This document shows, piece by piece, positions 18,075 to 54,426 of a DNA stretch of 64,000 nucleotides. Under the pieces are notes generated by a model. It searched no databases. It had not been told where the DNA came from and was given only the letters and a program-made list of their open reading frames with translations. The DNA lies in NCBI GenBank assembly GCA_026708685.1, contig JAPOUL010000117.1, positions 1 to 64,000 on the forward strand. The letters are read 5' to 3'. The stretch is from Bacteroidota bacterium (GTDB lineage: Bacteria > Bacteroidota > Rhodothermia > Rhodothermales > Bin80). Made by a program: the position numbers and the translations under genes. Position 1 is the first letter of the stretch. Every line of letters starts with the position of its first letter.

Positions 18075-21000
18075 TTAGAACCGAACCGAACCATGCATGT
18101 TGAGCCCCAGATCACCCCAAAATGCCTGTCGGTGATGGGCTAATCCTGAGATTGAGAAAGATACATGGCTCCATGGCCGCAATTCTCCACCCAATCGTAA
18201 TAATTGACCGCCTGGAAGTTGTGTGACACCAACGATGGAACGTGCCGTTCCATCATGCATCGGCATTCCATATCCGAGCTCTACTTCGGTACGATGCTGA
18301 TGAGACTGTAAAGGATTATAGTCCAAAATTGTCTGTTGGCGTTGTAATGATTGCACCTGATTGGCTCCCCACGATGGGCGTATTCGCATGGAGAAACCCA
18401 AAGTTGGATCACCCATTTGGATTGATACTGATACGCCCCATTCTGAAAATCCATCCGCACTATGGAGCACTAGCCCTTGAGAACGAATATCGCCAGTAAC
18501 GTTCCCTTCTAGGTAGGACATGCGTACTCCTCCACCGAGCTCCAATCCGATACCCGTCTCAGCATCCCCTCCATCTTGGCGAACATTAGCCTCCAGATAC
18601 GGATGAATTCCCTTGAAGAGTTGAAATGCACTTTCAACTCCAAGCCGTACTCGAATGACTTCTCCGTGGAGTCCTCCAATATCTAGGTTGGCATCAGTGT
18701 AGAGTACGTCCCCAAAGTAACTCATGTGAGTAGAGTTAAGGACTGCAATATTTCCACGGAGTCCCACGGCTCCCAGCCAAGATGTGAGATCTACGCGTAG
18801 ATCGTCCACTTTAATATGACCAGAGCCATATCCTCCACTGAGCCACATTTCCCATCCGGCTGATTCATACAAGAGATAGGGATAGTATCCATTTAACCTT
18901 GATTCAATGTCTTCACGAACGCTAATGATCTGATAAGAACCATCCCCCAAGTTGATGGAAGACATGATGCCGATGAGCCACTGGCTATTCAATCTGTAAT
19001 CTACACCAACGAGCGCTGAGGCCACATTTCCACGCAAGCTAAATGCATCTTCACTACGACCGTGAAACCGTTGAAATGAACCCCTTGCCCAGTACCCAAA
19101 TTCCCCTACAGATGTAGACGAGGTCTTGGAGATTTGACATCCTGAGAGTAATTCGCCCAAGGATGGGGTCCATGAAGAGGTCGTATGCCATAGGCGAGCC
19201 ATGTCAGAACGTTCCGCGACTGAACAGGTAGAGCCAGCGGGCTGAAATCGCTGATGCAACGCATCAATCACAAGTTCAGAAGTGGTCCGCACGAAGCGGG
19301 TAGCATATGCGATCAGGGCATCCTGATCAATGTTGGTTTCTTCTTGAATTACAGCGATTGCTGAGGATTTCGAAATCCGAGCCGGTTCAGATGATTCTAT
19401 ATGAACATAAAATGTTTCCTCGTGCCAGTTGAAATCATTGTGTAATAGAGGCACCACAATACTTTCCAGCATGGCTCCAGGTGCAAATGTGAGCATCCCA
19501 GTAGTTTCCACATAGTCTTTCCCAGCGGAAGCGGTACCATCAATAGTATAATAATGAACTGTAATTGGATGAGGACTTGGATGGGAGAGATGTACAGGGA
19601 AAGAAATCCGTCCATCATCTTCAACAGCAACGGCATCCTCAATAGCAAGAGTGGAGATACCATCATCATCTTTGATCGTTGCGGTTGCGGAGGGATTTCC
19701 AATCACCGCATTGCGAGGACTTCGAAGTTCAATAGTAAATGTCTCAGGATCTTCTACCTCTTCATCATCACGGATCTCAATTTGAATGACACCACGCGTT
19801 CCACCGGGATCAAAGATCACAATCCCTTGTGATGGGATGTAGTCATCCCCAGATAAAGCAGTTCCTTGATTGGTAGCATACTGAACAGTGATCACTTCAT
19901 TCAGTAAAGGGCGATCCAATTCTAAGGGTAAACGGATGGTACCATCACTTTCGATGGCATCATTATCAAAGAGTGTAATCGTGACAGCTCCTGCATCCAA
20001 AATCATAACGGATACATCTTGCTTTTGACCATCATATCCTCCTCCCGTTGCTGTTAATGTCAGCGTAACGGGATCATCATCTAAATCTAAGTCGGCAACT
20101 GATTGTAAATTTACTGTTTGTAGTCTTGACCAGTTGGATCGTGTAAATGTAAGACGATTGGTGGAGGGGGTGAGATCAGTACCCTGAAATCCAGTGATCT
20201 CCACGGACACAGTATTCGTGGGTTCAGCGGTCAAGCGAACCGAAAAGTCCCCGCTTGATTCCTCTTGAATCTGCAATGCGGAGGGTGTTACCTCCATTTT
20301 AGCAACATCGTTGTCAAGAATCGTGACTAGAACTGTTTCCGTCAAGTTATACCCTCCTCCAGATGCCTGAAGTGTCAATGGAACAGGATCATTGATTGAA
20401 TCGTCATCCTCTTTTGCCATTAGGGAAAATCTCTGATAGGCTCCATAGTTTGCAGTCGTAAAAGTAAGACTTGACAGAGATTGCAGTGCTAAATCGGTGG
20501 ACTCATAACCCGTAAGTAGCACGGTTACATCATCAGTAGGCATCTGTGTAAGATGAACATTCAATAGTCCAGATGCTCCTTCATTGACGGTAAGAGTACG
20601 TTGGACGAAAAGGCCAGGCTGATCATCATCAATGATTTCTACGCGGATTTCGTGCTCCACATCGTCAAAGTCATCACCACTGGCATTCAACGTTAAAAGG
20701 ATGTCATCATCATTTTCTGAATCTTCATCCTGACTGGCTGTCAAAAGGATGTCTTGAGTCTGATTCCAGTTTTGAGATGTAAATGGAAGAACAGCAGGAG
20801 TGAAGGACAAGTCATTGTCATCATCCCCAGTTTTAGAGACCCTCACCGATACCGGACCATCAGGCTGTGCAGTCAAAGAAACGCGCACATTTCTGGACTC
20901 CCCCTCGGAAATCACCACGGATGTTTCTGCATCAATCCCTGCCACATCATCACTACGAATGGTGATTTGTACAGAAGATGGAACGCCTTCATTCACCGAC

Positions 21001-24000
21001 GGAGGTAATGGGCCAAGTTCTACGGTAAATCGTTCATCGCCTTCAATGAGATGATCATTTTCGGCCAGAATTCGGATATTTCCGCGAGTTTGTCCACGAT
21101 TAATGATGACTTGGGGTTCAGTACTTTGAATCTCATAATCATCCGGTGTTGCCGTATCTGCAATCAAATTAAGTGGAATCGTTACGTTACTCTCCAGGGC
21201 TCGTGACATAGTTGCTGTGACGCTTGCTTCCTCGCCTTCTTCAATCGTCTCCAGATCTACAGATAAGGTGATGGTGGGTAGATTATCAAGGATTGTAACA
21301 ACAAGGGAGATCGGCCGTCCCCCGTCTACTTCAATTGGGAGTGTGCCAAAAGAAACTGAAAAGGTCTCCGGTTCCTCCACATTATTGTCAATCTTTGTTT
21401 GAATATCACCAGACATGCTTGTCCGTCCAGCAGGAATAACCAAACGCTTCAGTTGGATATAATCAACATCCGATTGAGCAGCAACACCTGGTCCTGTGGA
21501 ATACGCAAAAGGAATCGTCACGGATTTTGAAAGCGCTTTCTGTAAATTCACAGTGATCTTAACGGGATCACCTTCCACTACCGAGCTAGGGTTTAACTCC
21601 ATAGTTATCTCAACAGGAGGGTCAACATCATTGTCCGTGATCGTAATGCGTTCAGAGGATGGTGCACCTAACTTAATTCTAGGGGGTAATCGATTGGGAT
21701 CAATGGCTACGGTAAAGGATTCAATCGGCTCTACAGTGTCATCGTCGTCTGTAATAATATTGATGGATCCACGAGGTTGTCCAGATGGAATCGTCACCTC
21801 GGTTGGGCGAGCTTCAAAATCGGTTAGTTCTATTTCGTGATCCGTATAGTCCAATGTGATCACCGATTCCGTGGTCACTGCACTTGCAAGCTCAATCGTT
21901 ACCGTGATGGGTCTTCCCTCTTCTACAGAGTTGGAACTGACAGACAGGCTAGCCCGTGGACCATCATCAATCACCGTAATGTCAACATTTTTCGGATCGG
22001 CGGATGAGTATTCACCTCCAGATGCCCTGTTCACCAATACGGCTGAATCATTGTTGCCATCATTATCAGGTCCAGCGGAAACGGTTACCCTTTTAGGTTG
22101 ATTCCAGTTTGAAGAATTGAAAGACAGCGGAGATGGATTAGCAGATACTTCTCCAGTTGCTCCCGTCACACGGACCGTCACACTTGTAGTTGGTTGTGTT
22201 TCCAGTTCTACAGTATAGGAGTCACTTTGTCCTTCTTGAATTGTCAATGAAGATGGTTTCACAACAAGAGCTGGCACATCATCGTCGGAAATGTTAATCG
22301 TGACTGGTACTGAAGCATCTGCATACTCCTCTGCACCAGAGGCAGTGTTCCTTAATATGACCGTATCATTCTGCCCATCATCATCCTGCTTTGCGAAGAC
22401 GGTTACGATCTTTTCTCCCCAATCAAGGGAGGTAAAAAGAAGTGTAGATTGGACATTGGGCATATTAAGATCTATATCTACAGACACTTTTGTAGGTGGG
22501 CTATTGACAGTTACTGTAACATCACTGGTTGGCTGAGTTGACAGTTTTACGGTATAGGAACCGCTTGCACCCCCCTCATTCAAAGTGAGAGATGTGGGCA
22601 CAACAGTAAGTTCAGGTGTATCATTGTCCGTCACATTTACCGTAACTTCAACAGCAGTAGCAGATCCGTAACCACCGCCTGATGGCCGATTTGTTAAGGT
22701 AACTTCCTCATTTGCCCCATTATCATCTTGAGCTGCACTCACCGTTACGGTTTGTACATCGCTCCAATTGGTGGTTGTAAAAGTGAGACTTGATGAGGAG
22801 GTAGTGACATCCGAGGTAGCACCTTCAATATTCACGGTGACCGAAGCGGTTGGCTGGGTGGCCAATTTTACAGTGTAGCTGGCACTTCCTCCTTCGGATA
22901 CATTGATGGACTGTGGAGCAACATCAAGACCAATCTCATCATTATCGGTCACGGTTACTTCTACGTTCGCTTCAGTGCCAGAATATTCATCTGCTCCAGA
23001 GGCTGTATTCACGAGGGTAGCAGAATCATCAGCAACATCTCCATCTTCACCTGCACTGACGGTAACGGTTTTTGGACTCCAGTTGGTTGGGGTAAATGTC
23101 CATGAGGTTTGATTTACAGTGATTTCTCCTGATTCGCCAGCAATCGTAACCGTTACATTGCCACTCGGTTGGGAAGAAAGTGCTATGGTATAGGTTTTGG
23201 ATCCTCCCTCGTCAATGCTCAGTTCTGTTGGATCTATAGTGAGCGTTGCCTCATCATCATCCGTCACATTCACGGTTACCTCTTCTTCATCAACGGACCC
23301 ATAGTCGCCTCCAGATGCCTGATGGGTCAAGGTAACCTCATTATCTACCGCGTCATTATCATCAAGGGCATTAACAGTAACAGTTTTGCCATCTTTCCAG
23401 TTCGCATCTGTGAATGTCAATGGAGTAGGATTTGAAATTACATCTGTTGAAGATGAAGTGATTTGAACGGTTACCTGTGCTGTTGGCTGTGTTGCCAGTT
23501 TTACGGTGTAAGTACCAGAACTTCCTTCATTCACATTAAGTGTCAATGGATCTACAATGATCGCTTGGTCATCATCATCAATCACAGTGACTGCCACTTC
23601 TTTTCTTGTAGATACATACTCATCCGCCCCAGATGCCAAATTGATGAGGGTAGCCGTATCATCTTCGCCATCATCGTCTTCGGCCGCAGTCACTGTAATC
23701 GTTTGTGGTGTATTCCAAGTAGATGTGGTAAATGTTAAGGTGTTCTGATCCCCTTGGGTATTGCTATCTGTATCCACGGTGATATCACCAGTGGCACCAG
23801 TAACCTCAACGGTGACGGTTTCGGTAGGCTGGGTGGACAGTTCAATAGTATAGGTATTATTTCCACCCTCTGGCACCTCCAGTTCATCTGTACTTACAAC
23901 CAGCTCAATATCGTCATTATCAATGACAGTTATGTCAACATCCTTAGAGATGTCTGCGTAATCTCCTCCCGAAGCAGTATTGGTGAGCATTGCCGTATCG

Positions 24001-25598
24001 TTCACTCCGTCATCATCCTCCCCAGCACTCACAGTCACCGTCTGTTCAGTATTCCAGTTGGATGTGGTGAATGTTAACGTGTTTTGATCTCCAGAAGTAT
24101 TGCTGTCAGTATCTACGGTGATTTCTCCAGTTGTGCCAGTAACCTCAACAGTGACAGTTGCCGTAGGCTCAGTAGCCAACTTAACGGTATAGGTATTATT
24201 TCCACCTTCTGGTACATCCATTGCATCTTTACTCACCACCAATTCAATATCATCATCATCGGTGACCGTAACTTCAATATTTTTGGAAATGTCAGCATAA
24301 TCTCCACCCGAAGCGGTGTTGGTGAGCGTGGCAGTATCGTTCACTCCATCATTATCTTGCCTAGCACGTACGGTCACCGTCTGTTCTGTATTCCACGAGG
24401 ATGATGTGAAATCAAGTGAGGTTTGATTGCCTGGAGTGTTAGGATCAGTATCCACAGTAACATCTGAGTTGTCACTCCTGATTGAGATGGTCACATCATC
24501 AGTGGGCTTTGTCGAGAGTTTAACAGTGTATTCCTTACTGGATCCTTCATTCATTTTCAAGGATGATGGAGACACGATCAACTCCTGCTCATCGTCATCA
24601 ATGACTTTGACCTTAAAGGTGATAGGATCAAGGAAACCATACCCACCTCCCGAAGCACGGATTGTAAGATCTATCATCTCATCAACTCCATTATCGTCTT
24701 CGAGACCCTCAATCGTTACTGTCTGTGGTTGATTCCAGTTGTCGTTTTCAGGTGTAAAGAAAAAGGATTTGAAGAACTCATCACCATTACTGCTGATGTG
24801 GGAATCAGGGATCGTCACTTTTCCAACAGGCCCTTGGACACTCACCGAAGCCCCAGGTGTCTCGGGTTCTGATGAGATTTTCACCGTAAAGGTTTTTGAT
24901 TCACCCTCATTGACTTCTAAATCTGCGTTAGATAGATCTATGCCTTGGCCTGTATCATTATCATAGACATGTCTAAAAGTAAGATCAAATTCACGGTGGG
25001 CTTTAGCTTCTGGATATGCAGTATCTGCAAGACTTACATTAATTTTAACGCCCTGTAGGGTAGCGTCCACCCTACTGTTGTCGGTGGCGGTAATGGTGAA
25101 AAATTGAAGGATACACCAGTTAGATGGTGTGAATGTAAGACTTGGAACATCGGATACAACCGGTATAGCCAAGCTTGGTTGATCAGTGATATTGACAACT
25201 GCATCTGCAGAGAGTTTCGAGGAAGTCCGAATACCAAAGGTTATAGATTCACCTTCATGAATAGGGCCGTTATAGCCCCCTCTTCCTATAGTCTGATGGC
25301 TTGGTGGAAGAGATGCGTATAATCCTTTTACTTTATTCTCCTCAGCTGTATCACAGTTCTGATCACTTGATGATGATTTCAGGGAGGGCATGGCATCATT
25401 TGGGTCAATGGCCAGAGGAACAAGTGAAATCATTGGACTCAATCCATCTTCTGCGATTAAGTCAAAAGTAGATGAGCTAAGATCTACCGCTTGACCAGTG
25501 ACGTTCAAGACGGAGAAAGGAAGCAGAAGAGAAATGGCACATAGAGTCACACTCAACCAACCAAATCCAGCACAACTGAAAAGACTTTGGATGAGCAT
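18075..25598 (-). CDS. Giant Calx-beta repeat protein with C-terminal autotransporter-like barrel
   Basis: A 2507-residue predicted surface protein. It has a signal peptide (cleavage near NVTGQA, residue 36) and a rod of about 18 repeats of 100-115 residues. Most share N-E-G-x-x-x-Y-T-V-K-L at the start, a W-N-T/W-S block, and end in VTVTDDDD-like acidic Ca-binding linkers. Units about 1209-1545 and 1869-2085 are classical Calx-beta domains. After residue about 2088 comes a helix-like linker (ALIAYATRFVRTTSELVIDALHQRF), then a beta-barrel from about 2165 to the end, finishing in an aromatic residue (GSVRF), as in type V autotransporters. The likely job is Ca-dependent adhesion at the cell surface. 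Adjacent repeats are similar at DNA level. A 12-bp G tract lies 42 bp upstream of the start. Confidence 0.9.
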   Translation of the reverse strand: MLIQSLFSCAGFGWLSVTLCAISLLLPFSVLNVTGQAVDLSSSTFDLIAEDGLSPMISLVPLAIDPNDAMPSLKSSSSDQNCDTAEENKVKGLYASLPPSHQTIGRGGYNGPIHEGESITFGIRTSSKLSADAVVNITDQPSLAIPVVSDVPSLTFTPSNWCILQFFTITATDNSRVDATLQGVKINVSLADTAYPEAKAHREFDLTFRHVYDNDTGQGIDLSNADLEVNEGESKTFTVKISSEPETPGASVSVQGPVGKVTIPDSHISSNGDEFFKSFFFTPENDNWNQPQTVTIEGLEDDNGVDEMIDLTIRASGGGYGFLDPITFKVKVIDDDEQELIVSPSSLKMNEGSSKEYTVKLSTKPTDDVTISIRSDNSDVTVDTDPNTPGNQTSLDFTSSSWNTEQTVTVRARQDNDGVNDTATLTNTASGGDYADISKNIEVTVTDDDDIELVVSKDAMDVPEGGNNTYTVKLATEPTATVTVEVTGTTGEITVDTDSNTSGDQNTLTFTTSNWNTEQTVTVSAGEDDDGVNDTAMLTNTASGGDYADISKDVDITVIDNDDIELVVSTDELEVPEGGNNTYTIELSTQPTETVTVEVTGATGDITVDTDSNTQGDQNTLTFTTSTWNTPQTITVTAAEDDDGEDDTATLINLASGADEYVSTRKEVAVTVIDDDDQAIIVDPLTLNVNEGSSGTYTVKLATQPTAQVTVQITSSSTDVISNPTPLTFTDANWKDGKTVTVNALDDNDAVDNEVTLTHQASGGDYGSVDEEEVTVNVTDDDEATLTIDPTELSIDEGGSKTYTIALSSQPSGNVTVTIAGESGEITVNQTSWTFTPTNWSPKTVTVSAGEDGDVADDSATLVNTASGADEYSGTEANVEVTVTDNDEIGLDVAPQSINVSEGGSASYTVKLATQPTASVTVNIEGATSDVTTSSSSLTFTTTNWSDVQTVTVSAAQDDNGANEEVTLTNRPSGGGYGSATAVEVTVNVTDNDTPELTVVPTSLTLNEGGASGSYTVKLSTQPTSDVTVTVNSPPTKVSVDIDLNMPNVQSTLLFTSLDWGEKIVTVFAKQDDDGQNDTVILRNTASGAEEYADASVPVTINISDDDVPALVVKPSSLTIQEGQSDSYTVELETQPTTSVTVRVTGATGEVSANPSPLSFNSSNWNQPKRVTVSAGPDNDGNNDSAVLVNRASGGEYSSADPKNVDITVIDDGPRASLSVSSNSVEEGRPITVTIELASAVTTESVITLDYTDHEIELTDFEARPTEVTIPSGQPRGSINIITDDDDTVEPIESFTVAIDPNRLPPRIKLGAPSSERITITDNDVDPPVEITMELNPSSVVEGDPVKITVNLQKALSKSVTIPFAYSTGPGVAAQSDVDYIQLKRLVIPAGRTSMSGDIQTKIDNNVEEPETFSVSFGTLPIEVDGGRPISLVVTILDNLPTITLSVDLETIEEGEEASVTATMSRALESNVTIPLNLIADTATPDDYEIQSTEPQVIINRGQTRGNIRILAENDHLIEGDERFTVELGPLPPSVNEGVPSSVQITIRSDDVAGIDAETSVVISEGESRNVRVSLTAQPDGPVSVRVSKTGDDDNDLSFTPAVLPFTSQNWNQTQDILLTASQDEDSENDDDILLTLNASGDDFDDVEHEIRVEIIDDDQPGLFVQRTLTVNEGASGLLNVHLTQMPTDDVTVLLTGYESTDLALQSLSSLTFTTANYGAYQRFSLMAKEDDDSINDPVPLTLQASGGGYNLTETVLVTILDNDVAKMEVTPSALQIQEESSGDFSVRLTAEPTNTVSVEITGFQGTDLTPSTNRLTFTRSNWSRLQTVNLQSVADLDLDDDPVTLTLTATGGGYDGQKQDVSVMILDAGAVTITLFDNDAIESDGTIRLPLELDRPLLNEVITVQYATNQGTALSGDDYIPSQGIVIFDPGGTRGVIQIEIRDDEEVEDPETFTIELRSPRNAVIGNPSATATIKDDDGISTLAIEDAVAVEDDGRISFPVHLSHPSPHPITVHYYTIDGTASAGKDYVETTGMLTFAPGAMLESIVVPLLHNDFNWHEETFYVHIESSEPARISKSSAIAVIQEETNIDQDALIAYATRFVRTTSELVIDALHQRFQPAGSTCSVAERSDMARLWHTTSSWTPSLGELLSGCQISKTSSTSVGEFGYWARGSFQRFHGRSEDAFSLRGNVASALVGVDYRLNSQWLIGIMSSINLGDGSYQIISVREDIESRLNGYYPYLLYESAGWEMWLSGGYGSGHIKVDDLRVDLTSWLGAVGLRGNIAVLNSTHMSYFGDVLYTDANLDIGGLHGEVIRVRLGVESAFQLFKGIHPYLEANVRQDGGDAETGIGLELGGGVRMSYLEGNVTGDIRSQGLVLHSADGFSEWGVSVSIQMGDPTLGFSMRIRPSWGANQVQSLQRQQTILDYNPLQSHQHRTEVELGYGMPMHDGTARSIVGVTQLPGGQLLRLGGELRPWSHVSFSISGLAHHRQAFWGDLGLNMHGSVRF
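21950..24960 (-). repeat. Tandem ~315-340-bp coding repeats in the giant surface protein gene
   Basis: Nine consecutive units of the Calx-beta-like rod lie here in tandem, followed by more divergent units down to about 19330. Units centred near 23850 and 24200 are the most alike, sharing long blocks in the same order. The array is a plausible site of unit gain or loss and of assembly collapse. Confidence 0.8.
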
Positions 25599-50915: not shown

Positions 50916-52160
50916 ATGAGTTACGATATCACATCAACAGTAGGAATCTGTTTGGATACCAGCTGGATGGCCGTCCACTCCCTATTGAACAACATTCAGA
51001 TAGGAGTTTCAGTCTGCATGATGAGTACTCGTTGGCCTGAATCCAATGTTGATCGGTCGTTGGATGCATTAGGGATTCAGCAAGTGATCACTTATAGAAA
51101 AGATTTAAAGACTCGTACTGTTGAGCCGAACGTAATGGAAACCAACAAAATAGATCATTACGATCTATCAAAAGTCTCAAATCAAGTAGGGACAATGATC
51201 TTTACATCTGGTTCAAGTGCTCAGCCAAAAGCCGTATTCCATTCCATTCGACATCATCTATATAGTGCACTTAGAGTCGCAGAAGAATTGAAACTAGGCC
51301 CACAAGATCGGTGGCTACTCAGTCTTCCTCTATGGCATGTTTCGGGCATTAGTATTGTATTCAGGTGTCTGATCGCTGGTGCAGAAGTAGTCATCCCTGA
51401 TTCTCATATGCCACTTCTTGAATCACTCTCCCAATATAAAATCACGCATGTCTCGTTGGTTTCTACCCAACTGTTACAGGTCATGGATACATCTCCTCCC
51501 GACTGTTTACGCGTTGCTATCGTGGGAGGAGGACCAATTTCACATCAAATGATTGATACAGCAAGATATCATGGATGGCCGATTCTAACCACCTACGGCA
51601 TGACGGAAACCAGTTCAATGGTGACACTCAGCGACGAACAATCAGATCCGAGCTCCTCTGGGAGAGTACTCCAAGGTCATGAACTGATGATTGCATCCGA
51701 TCAGGAAATTCTCGTTCGCAGTCCATCGGTATGTTCTGGTTATCTCTCTGAAAATCGATTGAAAAGCGTCGTAGATGAATACGGATGGTATCATTCAGGA
51801 GATTTAGGAGAAATGGACCAGTCAGGAAACCTTTATCTTCTCGGACGAAAAGATTACATGTTTATTTCGGGTGGAGAGAATATCAGCCCAGAAGAAATTC
51901 AGTCATGGATCAACAACTATCCAGATGTCTTGGAATCCATCGTAATTCCAATACCAGATCCTATATTTGGACACCGTCCTGTAGCATTTATTCGTGGACT
52001 TGTATCTATGGAATCTATTTCTGAGTATCTAGCTAAACATCTGCCAAAATTTAAAGTACCTACTTTGTATCCATGGCCAGAAAATGTCATCTCACACCAT
52101 GGCAAATATGATCGCGAAAGCCTCATCCAATTAGCCAATGATCTTCAAGAAAAAAGTTGA
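50916..52160 (+). CDS. AMP-dependent acyl-CoA ligase, MenE-like
   Basis: A 414-residue member of the ANL superfamily, most like o-succinylbenzoate-CoA ligase of menaquinone synthesis. Core motifs are present: IFTSGSSAQPKAV, TYGMTETSSMV, YHSGDLG, GRKDYMFISGGENISPEEIQ, and the catalytic Lys in HHGKYDRESL. It is short at the N terminus: it begins where relatives are about 40-50 residues in, and an in-frame TAG precedes the ATG, so no longer version exists. No other men genes are nearby, so the substrate may be a different acid. It converges on the GPP34-P450 gene. Confidence 0.8.
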   Translation: MSYDITSTVGICLDTSWMAVHSLLNNIQIGVSVCMMSTRWPESNVDRSLDALGIQQVITYRKDLKTRTVEPNVMETNKIDHYDLSKVSNQVGTMIFTSGSSAQPKAVFHSIRHHLYSALRVAEELKLGPQDRWLLSLPLWHVSGISIVFRCLIAGAEVVIPDSHMPLLESLSQYKITHVSLVSTQLLQVMDTSPPDCLRVAIVGGGPISHQMIDTARYHGWPILTTYGMTETSSMVTLSDEQSDPSSSGRVLQGHELMIASDQEILVRSPSVCSGYLSENRLKSVVDEYGWYHSGDLGEMDQSGNLYLLGRKDYMFISGGENISPEEIQSWINNYPDVLESIVIPIPDPIFGHRPVAFIRGLVSMESISEYLAKHLPKFKVPTLYPWPENVISHHGKYDRESLIQLANDLQEKS

Positions 52161-52275: not shown

Positions 52276-54426
52276 TCAAGACTGGCCAAACTGTGCACTG
52301 AACGGGCACTGGGGTGGTGGATCTATTGAGAGGTCTTGGTGTGAAGATAGTGGTTTACCTTTGTAGGTTGCAACTACCCTGCGCGACAGCGCGATCTTGA
52401 ATTTTTTTGAAGCAATTGGCACACCATCAAAGATCAATTTCAGGTTGTAGTTTGGAGGATCCATGGATAGATGACGGGAATGGAGAATCATTGCTAAACA
52501 GAAGATCAAATGAATATCCGCAATGCTACTACCCAAGCAACGATGGGTACCAAAGCCATAAGGCATGTAGACCCCAAGCTGACGATGTTCCATCCGATCA
52601 GGGAGATATCGATCAATGTCAAACGTCTCTGGGTTCGGGAAAAATTCTTTGCAATAATGGGGTACACAAAATGGAATCAGAAGTGGTGTTCCTGCCTTAA
52701 TCGTGTAACCACCAAAGTCAAACGTATTAATGGCCGTTCGAAATACGGAGTTAAAAGGATTATACAAGCGGAGAGTTTCCATGATTAACCGGGGGATGAC
52801 ATCCAACTTGCCTAATGTTTGCGGAATTAATTCATCAGGATGTAGAAATAGGTCATCCGCCTCTTTTTGGGCCTCTTTCAGGGTTTCGGGATGCTTCAGC
52901 AGTAGATATAGTGCAGATGTTGCAGTGCTGGCGGTTGTATGCATTCCAGCGAAAATTGGCCCCAAACTGGAAATTCTGACTTCCTGCTCTGGCATAAACT
53001 GAGGCGATTTTCGATGAAATTCCAACAGGGCTTTCAGAACACGACTTTTACGATCATCCTCAGAGGTTTGCAGGTTATGATCTACGGCTGACGAAAAAAT
53101 ACTGAAAAACCCTCTTTTTGCTTTCTGAAGCTTTTTATTTTTTAAGACATAATTATTGAATAGATCTGGAATGAATTGAAGAATGGTCATCGAGACCAAC
53201 CGACGCATGAAAAAATCCAGATCATCAACTTGTTGTGTCGTTGGAGTGTATCCATTGCAGGCAAGTGCAATGGATTTGGCCGTAAGTTGAGTGAACATAT
53301 GACCGACACTATGGGTGCCTGTGGTGGGGACTTCGTCCTGAATCACATTTTGAATCTCAGGGAGTACAGCCAGATATTCCTTCGCAGAAAACCCTGGAGA
53401 CAATCCTTTTCTGAGTTTGAGATGATCCTCCCCATCCATGGATAGAAGAAGTCTTGGTGTATCCATTGCTACTGCGAATGAACCATAGGCATCGTGACTC
53501 CGAAATAAAGACCGTCCTCTTTTTTGGCAAAAAAGATTTGCTTCGGGGCCTGCAAGAACGACAAGTTCATTACGAAAATCACGAATGCGGAAAACAGGCC
53601 CCAGAGAATTATAAAATTTTGCAAGTGGAACGGTAGGGACGGGTCGGATGATGTGGGAGTGTCCAACCAATGGTAATGCTTCAGGAGCGAGCGGAGGTCT
53701 TGAGGTTGTTGTAGAGGTTAGATTACAATAAATCCTCTGGAGAGTGTCCCTCCCTTCATGAATTTTGCGAGATTCAGATATAGATGTTCTAATGGATCGT
53801 CCAATAGAATCCATTTGAGTAATTAGCTGAATCCGATCTGCTCTCTCATTGGAAAGAGATCTTGTGAAGATATGATCCTTAATCCCGGTTGCTTCAACCA
53901 AACCAATCAGCATGACCTCTCTGGGAGACGGTATCTCATCTGTCATTACGATGTTGGTGATTCTTAATAGAGCATCAAGTCCATTGGGAAGGGGGATGTT
54001 AGGGTATCGCCCTGTTAATTCTACATGGTCATCCAAGCTGATGAGTCCACCAGGATCCCGGTGAAAAATGCCCCTCGCAATGAGCCGATCGAGTGAATGA
54101 CGTCGAATGTGATTAATGATTTCCACCGAAGAGAAGTGCTTGACCCATTGGTCAATGGTAGATTTATTGGATTGTTGTTGATCAATGATGTTCAAACAAT
54201 AGTCCAGAATTTCATCGCCCGTTGGACTTGAGTCCATGAGGATGAGATCGCTCAGTGTGGTGTCAATTCGTTGAGCATTGGCAAGATCCATGAGGACTGC
54301 ACCTGCGAACGCACACCGTAGATCAAGATCAGTTGTATCGACTATGCCTCCATGGTGCCGATCAATGAGTAAAAGATGTAACTCTTCAGTCAACAAGAGA
54401 TCATCAGAAGACTTGATAGCAGACAT
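52276..54426 (-). CDS. GPP34-cytochrome P450 fusion protein
   Basis: A 716-residue protein with two domains rarely if ever seen joined. Residues about 1-230 resemble GPP34 (GOLPH3-like; LLLTEELHLLLIDRHHGGIV, LRCAFAGAVLMDLANAQRID), an acidic-lipid-binding fold in eukaryotes. Residues about 250-690 are a cytochrome P450: I-helix FAGMHTTAS (His as in CYP51-type enzymes instead of the usual acidic residue), ExxR motif ETLR, and haem loop YGFGTHRCLG with the Cys ligand near residue 630. A proline-rich tail (SIDPPPQCPFSAQFGQS) ends it. Start is MSAIKSSDDLLLTEE; an upstream Met adds a hydrophobic leader. The P450 probably oxidises a lipid or sterol-like substrate held near membranes by the GPP34 part; that is inference. 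Confidence 0.85.
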   Translation of the reverse strand: MSAIKSSDDLLLTEELHLLLIDRHHGGIVDTTDLDLRCAFAGAVLMDLANAQRIDTTLSDLILMDSSPTGDEILDYCLNIIDQQQSNKSTIDQWVKHFSSVEIINHIRRHSLDRLIARGIFHRDPGGLISLDDHVELTGRYPNIPLPNGLDALLRITNIVMTDEIPSPREVMLIGLVEATGIKDHIFTRSLSNERADRIQLITQMDSIGRSIRTSISESRKIHEGRDTLQRIYCNLTSTTTSRPPLAPEALPLVGHSHIIRPVPTVPLAKFYNSLGPVFRIRDFRNELVVLAGPEANLFCQKRGRSLFRSHDAYGSFAVAMDTPRLLLSMDGEDHLKLRKGLSPGFSAKEYLAVLPEIQNVIQDEVPTTGTHSVGHMFTQLTAKSIALACNGYTPTTQQVDDLDFFMRRLVSMTILQFIPDLFNNYVLKNKKLQKAKRGFFSIFSSAVDHNLQTSEDDRKSRVLKALLEFHRKSPQFMPEQEVRISSLGPIFAGMHTTASTATSALYLLLKHPETLKEAQKEADDLFLHPDELIPQTLGKLDVIPRLIMETLRLYNPFNSVFRTAINTFDFGGYTIKAGTPLLIPFCVPHYCKEFFPNPETFDIDRYLPDRMEHRQLGVYMPYGFGTHRCLGSSIADIHLIFCLAMILHSRHLSMDPPNYNLKLIFDGVPIASKKFKIALSRRVVATYKGKPLSSHQDLSIDPPPQCPFSAQFGQS

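Follow-up and report, generated by a model that had tools for sequence, protein, structure and literature searches.

A GOLPH3-like domain fused to a cytochrome P450 in bacteria of ten named phyla

The fusion gene and its surroundings

The stretch of DNA analyzed here (hereafter the window; 64,000 nucleotides) contains, between positions 54426 and 52276 on the minus strand, an open reading frame (ORF) that translates into a protein of 716 amino acids; the plus-strand translation of the same interval is full of stops. The first-pass annotation had described this interval as a GPP34 domain joined to a cytochrome P450. Its coordinates stand, the strand had to be corrected to minus, and the gene turns out to belong to a large family spread over many phyla. 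The features are as follows.

52276..54426, minus strand: GPP34-P450 fusion gene, 716 aa (P0001), ATG at 54426; homologues known
53779..54393, minus strand: GPP34 (GOLPH3-like) domain, residues 12-216 (PF05719, E=1.3e-23); model matches GOLPH3
53692..53778, minus strand: linker, residues 217-245, containing a low-confidence segment (229-240) in the AlphaFold2 model
52456..53691, minus strand: cytochrome P450 domain, residues 246-657 (PF00067, E=3e-50); nearest solved structures are CYP51
52933..52950, minus strand: I-helix AGMHTT, residues 493-498, read from the sequence
52768..52779, minus strand: ExxR motif, E550-R553, invariant in two homologue alignments
52537..52539, minus strand: haem-ligand Cys630 in YGFGTHRCLG, invariant in two homologue alignments

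Both domains score well above the curated Pfam cut-offs (84.5 vs 29.1 bits for GPP34 and 171.8 vs 22.8 bits for the P450), and no other Pfam domain was found in the protein. The AlphaFold2 model of the full-length protein (pLDDT 85) consists of two well-folded halves, and the GPP34 half modeled alone reaches a pLDDT of 92. Together with the homologues described below, these results confirm that GPP34 and P450 reside in one ORF. In the window genome (3.83 Mb, 99.6% complete), the fusion is the only GPP34 protein found.

The fusion gene stands alone rather than in an operon, with an AMP-ligase, a tRNA-editing protein and a pantothenate kinase as neighbours. The AMP-binding ligase (window 50916-52160, plus strand, 414 aa) converges on the fusion gene; its Pfam match begins at profile position 47, so its N terminus may be short. 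Elsewhere in the window, positions 18075-25598 on the minus strand are occupied by an ORF of 2507 aa.

Spread and origin of the family

A search of 59 genomes, namely the window's own and its relatives, recovered full-length fusions not only from the genus and family of the window bacterium but also from a second family of its order, with 25-56% identity. When 84,980 named species genomes were scanned, 393 relatives came up; among the 80 best of these, which were retained, 78 encode the fusion. In the two others, both from Chloroflexota (L075 and L077), only the last helix of GPP34 remains at the start of the ORF, and in the tree both fall inside the fused clade, beside a fused Gemmatimonadota copy, so that they look like secondary losses of GPP34. 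Altogether, the search for this domain architecture across genomes, which the first-pass annotation had proposed, yielded about 90 distinct GPP34-P450 sequences from 10 named phyla (by record titles, Pseudomonadota, Acidobacteriota, Gemmatimonadota, Chloroflexota, Latescibacterota, Rhodothermota/Bacteroidota, Nitrospirota, Myxococcota, Deinococcota and Binatota), a phylum count that would be too high if contigs had been binned wrongly. That two genes were joined by chance or misassembly, an idea in whose favour one can only point out that the window stems from a draft assembly of 170 contigs, is ruled out because full-length fusions occur in independent assemblies of 10 phyla, including records titled ‘chromosome’, and the same architecture with congruent domain trees is found in dozens of independent assemblies; the fusion is real.

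The names of many of the metagenome-assembled genomes (MAGs) that carry the fusion (RHO, COS, CAR, SB06xx, jk18x, p16x and others) suggest sponge metagenomes as their source. A sponge source of the R. odorabile, C. matthewsi, C. foliascens and A. aerophoba MAGs is consistent with a published report (PMC8163846); the remaining hosts, judged from MAG names alone, are apparently sponge symbionts as well, and the window bacterium, judging by its relatives, apparently also lives in marine sponges. In evenly drawn surveys, GPP34 is rare and not fused to P450 beyond the window's family and the sponge-symbiont centre genome: in the other surveyed Bacteroidota, GPP34 open frames do not exceed 342 aa, apart from a single one of 963 aa in which the domain is fused to a different protein, and those of the other surveyed Pseudomonadota reach at most 348 aa. 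Non-sponge members could be found among the 313 unlisted relatives and in unsurveyed phyla, Actinomycetota above all.

On the full-length tree the phyla interleave, with 23 changes of phylum compared to a mean of 41.6 after shuffling. The tree of the GPP34 domain places the fused copies on one side of a single branch (SH-aLRT 92), and the P450 tree splits the fused and secondarily unfused copies together from the four other P450s tried (support 100), the outgroup sampling being small in these trees; each domain tree recovers both the window group and a second clade, denoted here clade B. Given that both domain trees fit one event and that the phyla interleave, the simplest reading would be a single fusion followed by horizontal transfer among co-resident bacteria. 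A viral origin was considered and rejected, no relative having been detected in the viral contigs searched; a plasmid-borne fusion was rejected as well, because none of the 382 matching plasmid records covers 80% of the query, the best places listed covering the P450 part. Two fusion genes lie close together on the same strand at L096:9971-15612, and a second fusion is also present in L095.

No description of a GPP34-P450 protein was found in the literature searched, where papers on GPP34 mostly concern unrelated insecticidal Gpp34 proteins, in agreement with the first-pass statement that no described enzyme of this kind was known. The architecture appears to be undescribed, though each half is of a known kind, and it defines an enzyme family found in many bacterial phyla whose apparent common trait is life in sponges.

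The two halves of the protein

The model of the GPP34 half matches GOLPH3/Vps74 structures at Z 16.4-19.2, with GOLPH3 9qpq_B at the top (Z 19.2, rmsd 2.8, 200 residues aligned); this structure search found nothing else above Z 4, the next unrelated fold being at Z 3.7. Unlike GOLPH3 and Vps74, with which it shares the same fold over about 200 residues, the window GPP34 is fused to an enzyme, and R90 and most of the other PI4P-pocket residues are not kept in the family. The PI4P-pocket residues of GOLPH3 are W81, R90, R171 and R174 (PMC4414131). In the sequence alignment of 38 homologues, the R90 position is Ala in 36, that of R171 is mostly Asp, Glu or Asn, R174 is Arg in 24, and W81 has no clear counterpart; three of the four residues are accordingly not conserved, a statement about aligned sequences rather than about binding. 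A role as a PI4P reader is not supported by these comparisons, and the earlier suggestion that this half binds a phosphoinositide-like lipid is weakened. Standalone bacterial GPP34 proteins, such as Streptomyces SCO4440, which affects peptidoglycan cross-links by an unknown mechanism, carry the same Pfam domain without the P450 fusion (PMC12402492).

Two other bacterial GPP34 fusions were encountered. In another Bacteroidota family, GPP34 is fused to a molybdopterin oxidoreductase (L110:1-2865, minus strand, genome G093), and in the genome of the clade B member L091, a C-terminal half that is hydrophobic and apparently spans the membrane comes after GPP34 (L147:5228-6421, minus strand), the gene lying directly upstream of one for a multihaem cytochrome. 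The theme common to these fusions and GPP34-P450 is redox-linked proteins, which makes it more likely that the GPP34 half docks to a membrane surface or a partner than that it reads PI4P; these fusions, with the apparently membrane-spanning domain of L147 among them, also agree better with docking than with a pure membrane anchor. The repeated use of a GOLPH3-type domain in redox-linked proteins opens a route to the role of GPP34 outside eukaryotes. The domain might instead serve purely as a module for protein-protein contacts or dimerisation, bringing in a redox partner or the enzyme of the next step (a sulfotransferase or acyltransferase) with no membrane contact, a possibility that we rate a little short of even and that is compatible with either kind of substrate discussed below. 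The poor conservation of the PI4P pocket and the molybdopterin oxidoreductase and L147 fusions are in line with such a module; however, GOLPH3 proteins sit at the membrane surface, the fold is kept in full, and a lipid pocket of different chemistry is conceivable.

The second half is assigned to the cytochrome P450 family by its profile match, the ExxR motif and the haem-ligand Cys; E550, R553 and C630 are invariant in two homologue alignments, as expected of the complete P450 that the first-pass annotation had perceived. Both by sequence profile and by fold, the nearest solved structures are CYP51 enzymes (TM about 0.8 by target length), the closest being that of Methylococcus capsulatus (PDB 7jj1/6mcw), in which a fused ferredoxin is found whereas the window protein has an N-terminal GPP34. 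Other near structures are those of the isoprenoid P450s CYP120 and taxadiene 5-hydroxylase, and there are weak NCBIfam matches to pentalenene and albaflavenone oxygenases. In P450 nomenclature, membership of a family requires 40% identity; the identity to the nearest CYP51 structures is about 22%, below this rule. The CYP51 B'-helix signature YxxFxxxFGxxVxF/Y is seen in none of the 80 loci (the window sequence was read by eye). The I-helix sequence AGMHTT of the window protein fits the CYP51 motif GxH[TS][TS], and its His had been taken as a CYP51-like hint of a sterol- or terpenoid-like substrate; the CYP51-like character of the P450 and the hint hold, but the His by itself is weak evidence, the exact motif occurring in only one of 80 homologous loci. 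Given the rarity of this motif and the missing B'-helix signature, the sterol link rests on genome context. That the fusion is itself a CYP51 was rejected on account of the low identity, the missing signature and the separate true CYP51 encoded in the same genome.

Clade A, to which the window protein belongs, keeps an AGxxT-type I-helix. In clade B (L009-L018, L078-L101), the corresponding sequence is ASIY-LG, one residue fewer and without the acid-alcohol pair, the absence of which suggests that these proteins use different oxygen chemistry and are possibly non-monooxygenase P450s.

Sterol genes, gene neighbourhoods and the likely role

The window genome encodes a complete-looking sterol operon on contig C89 (L119:5031-13203), comprising a 3beta-HSD/epimerase-like protein, an SdmA-like Rieske protein, ERG24, CYP51 and a squalene epoxidase-oxidosqualene cyclase. 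The Rieske protein matches the NCBIfam 4beta-methylsterol monooxygenase with E 5e-117, yet falls below the curated cut-off; the CYP51 is a true one, with both signature motifs and a phmmer E-value of 1e-100; and the epoxidase and cyclase form one protein of 1176 aa with a DCTAE motif. A short sterol methyltransferase fragment lies near the operon on the opposite strand. Because this operon has its own CYP51, the fusion is presumably not the 14-demethylase. The operon is equivalent to the sterol clusters of sponge symbionts (the msb locus, PMC7074536; CSGs, PMC9531527; SMT clusters, PMC10070321), including the squalene epoxidase-cyclase fusion, fused SMO/OSC proteins being already known (PMC10070321). 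In the window genome, the GPP34-P450 gene is not linked to the ERG24-CYP51-OSC operon but lies on another draft contig, C25; term searches of the three papers returned no GPP34 or Golgi-type protein.

Squalene epoxidase is encoded in all 6 genomes of the window-type subclade, which represent four phyla (G000, G004, G005 and those of L023, Gemmatimonadota; L024, Nitrospirota; and L025, Gammaproteobacteria), compared to 3 of 23 other clade A genomes (those of L053, L063 and L069; p 1.8e-4). Clade B genomes with squalene epoxidase include L072, L074, L091, L095, G001, G002 and G029. Within the window's order, sterol methyltransferase is found in 12 of 17 fusion-bearing genomes and strong ERG4/24 matches in 8 of 17, compared to none of the 42 others in either case. 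The p values of co-occurrence take no account of phylogeny or shared habitat; carrying sterol genes is common among sponge symbionts (PMC9531527), and the association may reflect lifestyle and shared ancestry.

Adjacency was counted over 43 dereplicated fusion loci. A sulfotransferase adjoins the fusion on the same strand in 7 loci, including L024 and L025, accounting for 7 of the 9 sulfotransferases found (p 4.6e-5); an acyltransferase-3 is adjacent in 5 of 5 cases and an FAD amine-oxidase-type protein in 4 of 5. Within the window-type subclade, the loci with an adjacent sulfotransferase are L024, L025 and L108 (genome of L004); the enzyme was not among the genes tested beside the window fusion or L107 (genome of L003), and no Sulfotransfer_3 match was found in the window genome. 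The gene order is CysD, fusion, sulfotransferase and CysNC in L027, and CysNC, fusion and sulfotransferase in L034; judged from the annotated genes, sulfate activation sits beside sulfotransfer in both. In four Acidobacteriota loci (L033, L035, L042 and L045), a squalene-hopene cyclase ORF overlaps the start of the fusion by 4 bp. The surroundings in clade B include an RND pump, HlyD, OEP, a KshA-like Rieske protein and a sterol methyltransferase, the adjacency being not significant.

The CYP51-like P450 half, the sterol operon of the genome, the co-occurrence and the linked transferase, cyclase and steroid-type genes make sterol or triterpenoid tailoring the best-supported role of GPP34-P450, to which we give an even chance. 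Under this scheme, a soluble bacterial P450 monooxygenase would tailor a polycyclic triterpenoid lipid, most likely the cell's own sterol, with the GPP34 domain standing in for the helix that anchors eukaryotic P450s to the membrane and keeping the catalytic part at the membrane surface or beside partner enzymes; in relatives, the transferase encoded next to the fusion would sulfate or acylate the new hydroxyl, and one clade would export the product through its RND pump. Several observations count against a sterol role, namely the lack of squalene epoxidase in most other clade A fusion genomes, the position of the window gene outside any operon and the window genome without a Sulfotransfer_3 match; the missing acid-alcohol pair of clade B counts against one shared chemistry, and the clades may differ.

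The main alternative, somewhat unlikely in our estimation, is that the substrate of the P450 is a lipid other than a sterol (for instance a linear terpenoid, a hopanoid or a fatty or amino lipid), which is then sulfated or acylated, the sterol link being a correlation of lifestyle. The scarcity of squalene epoxidase outside the window-type subclade, the clade A neighbours (sulfotransferases, acyltransferases and hopene cyclase rather than sterol genes) and the unlinked window gene all agree with a non-sterol substrate, whereas the presence of squalene epoxidase in all six window-type genomes across four phyla and CYP51 being the closest solved P450 speak for sterols. It is very improbable that the protein is a host-directed, eukaryotic-like effector whose GPP34 domain targets sponge Golgi or PI4P membranes while the P450 modifies host lipids: the family does appear restricted to sponge symbionts, a niche known for eukaryotic-like proteins (PMC9531527), but the PI4P pocket residues are mostly lost, standalone bacterial GPP34 homologues make a host origin unnecessary, and the protein begins almost at the GPP34 domain, with no secretion signal noticed.

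Carried further, sterol or triterpenoid tailoring leads to a speculative and, taken as a whole, unlikely proposal: GPP34-P450 would be a horizontally shared enzyme that supplies the missing oxidative step in the tailoring of sterols by sponge symbionts and, together with the adjacent PAPS-dependent sulfotransferase, makes oxidised or sulfated sterols and triterpenoids for which the sponge has long been given credit, the bacterial GOLPH3 domain serving as a membrane or partner dock. The family bears on whether the oxidised, alkylated and sulfated sterols found in sponges are made by the host or by its symbionts, and on the debate over the 24-isopropylcholestane biomarker (PMC10070321). As a minor observation, a single ORF downstream of the fusion in one locus (L031:12013-13695) combines an acyltransferase-3 domain with ankyrin repeats.
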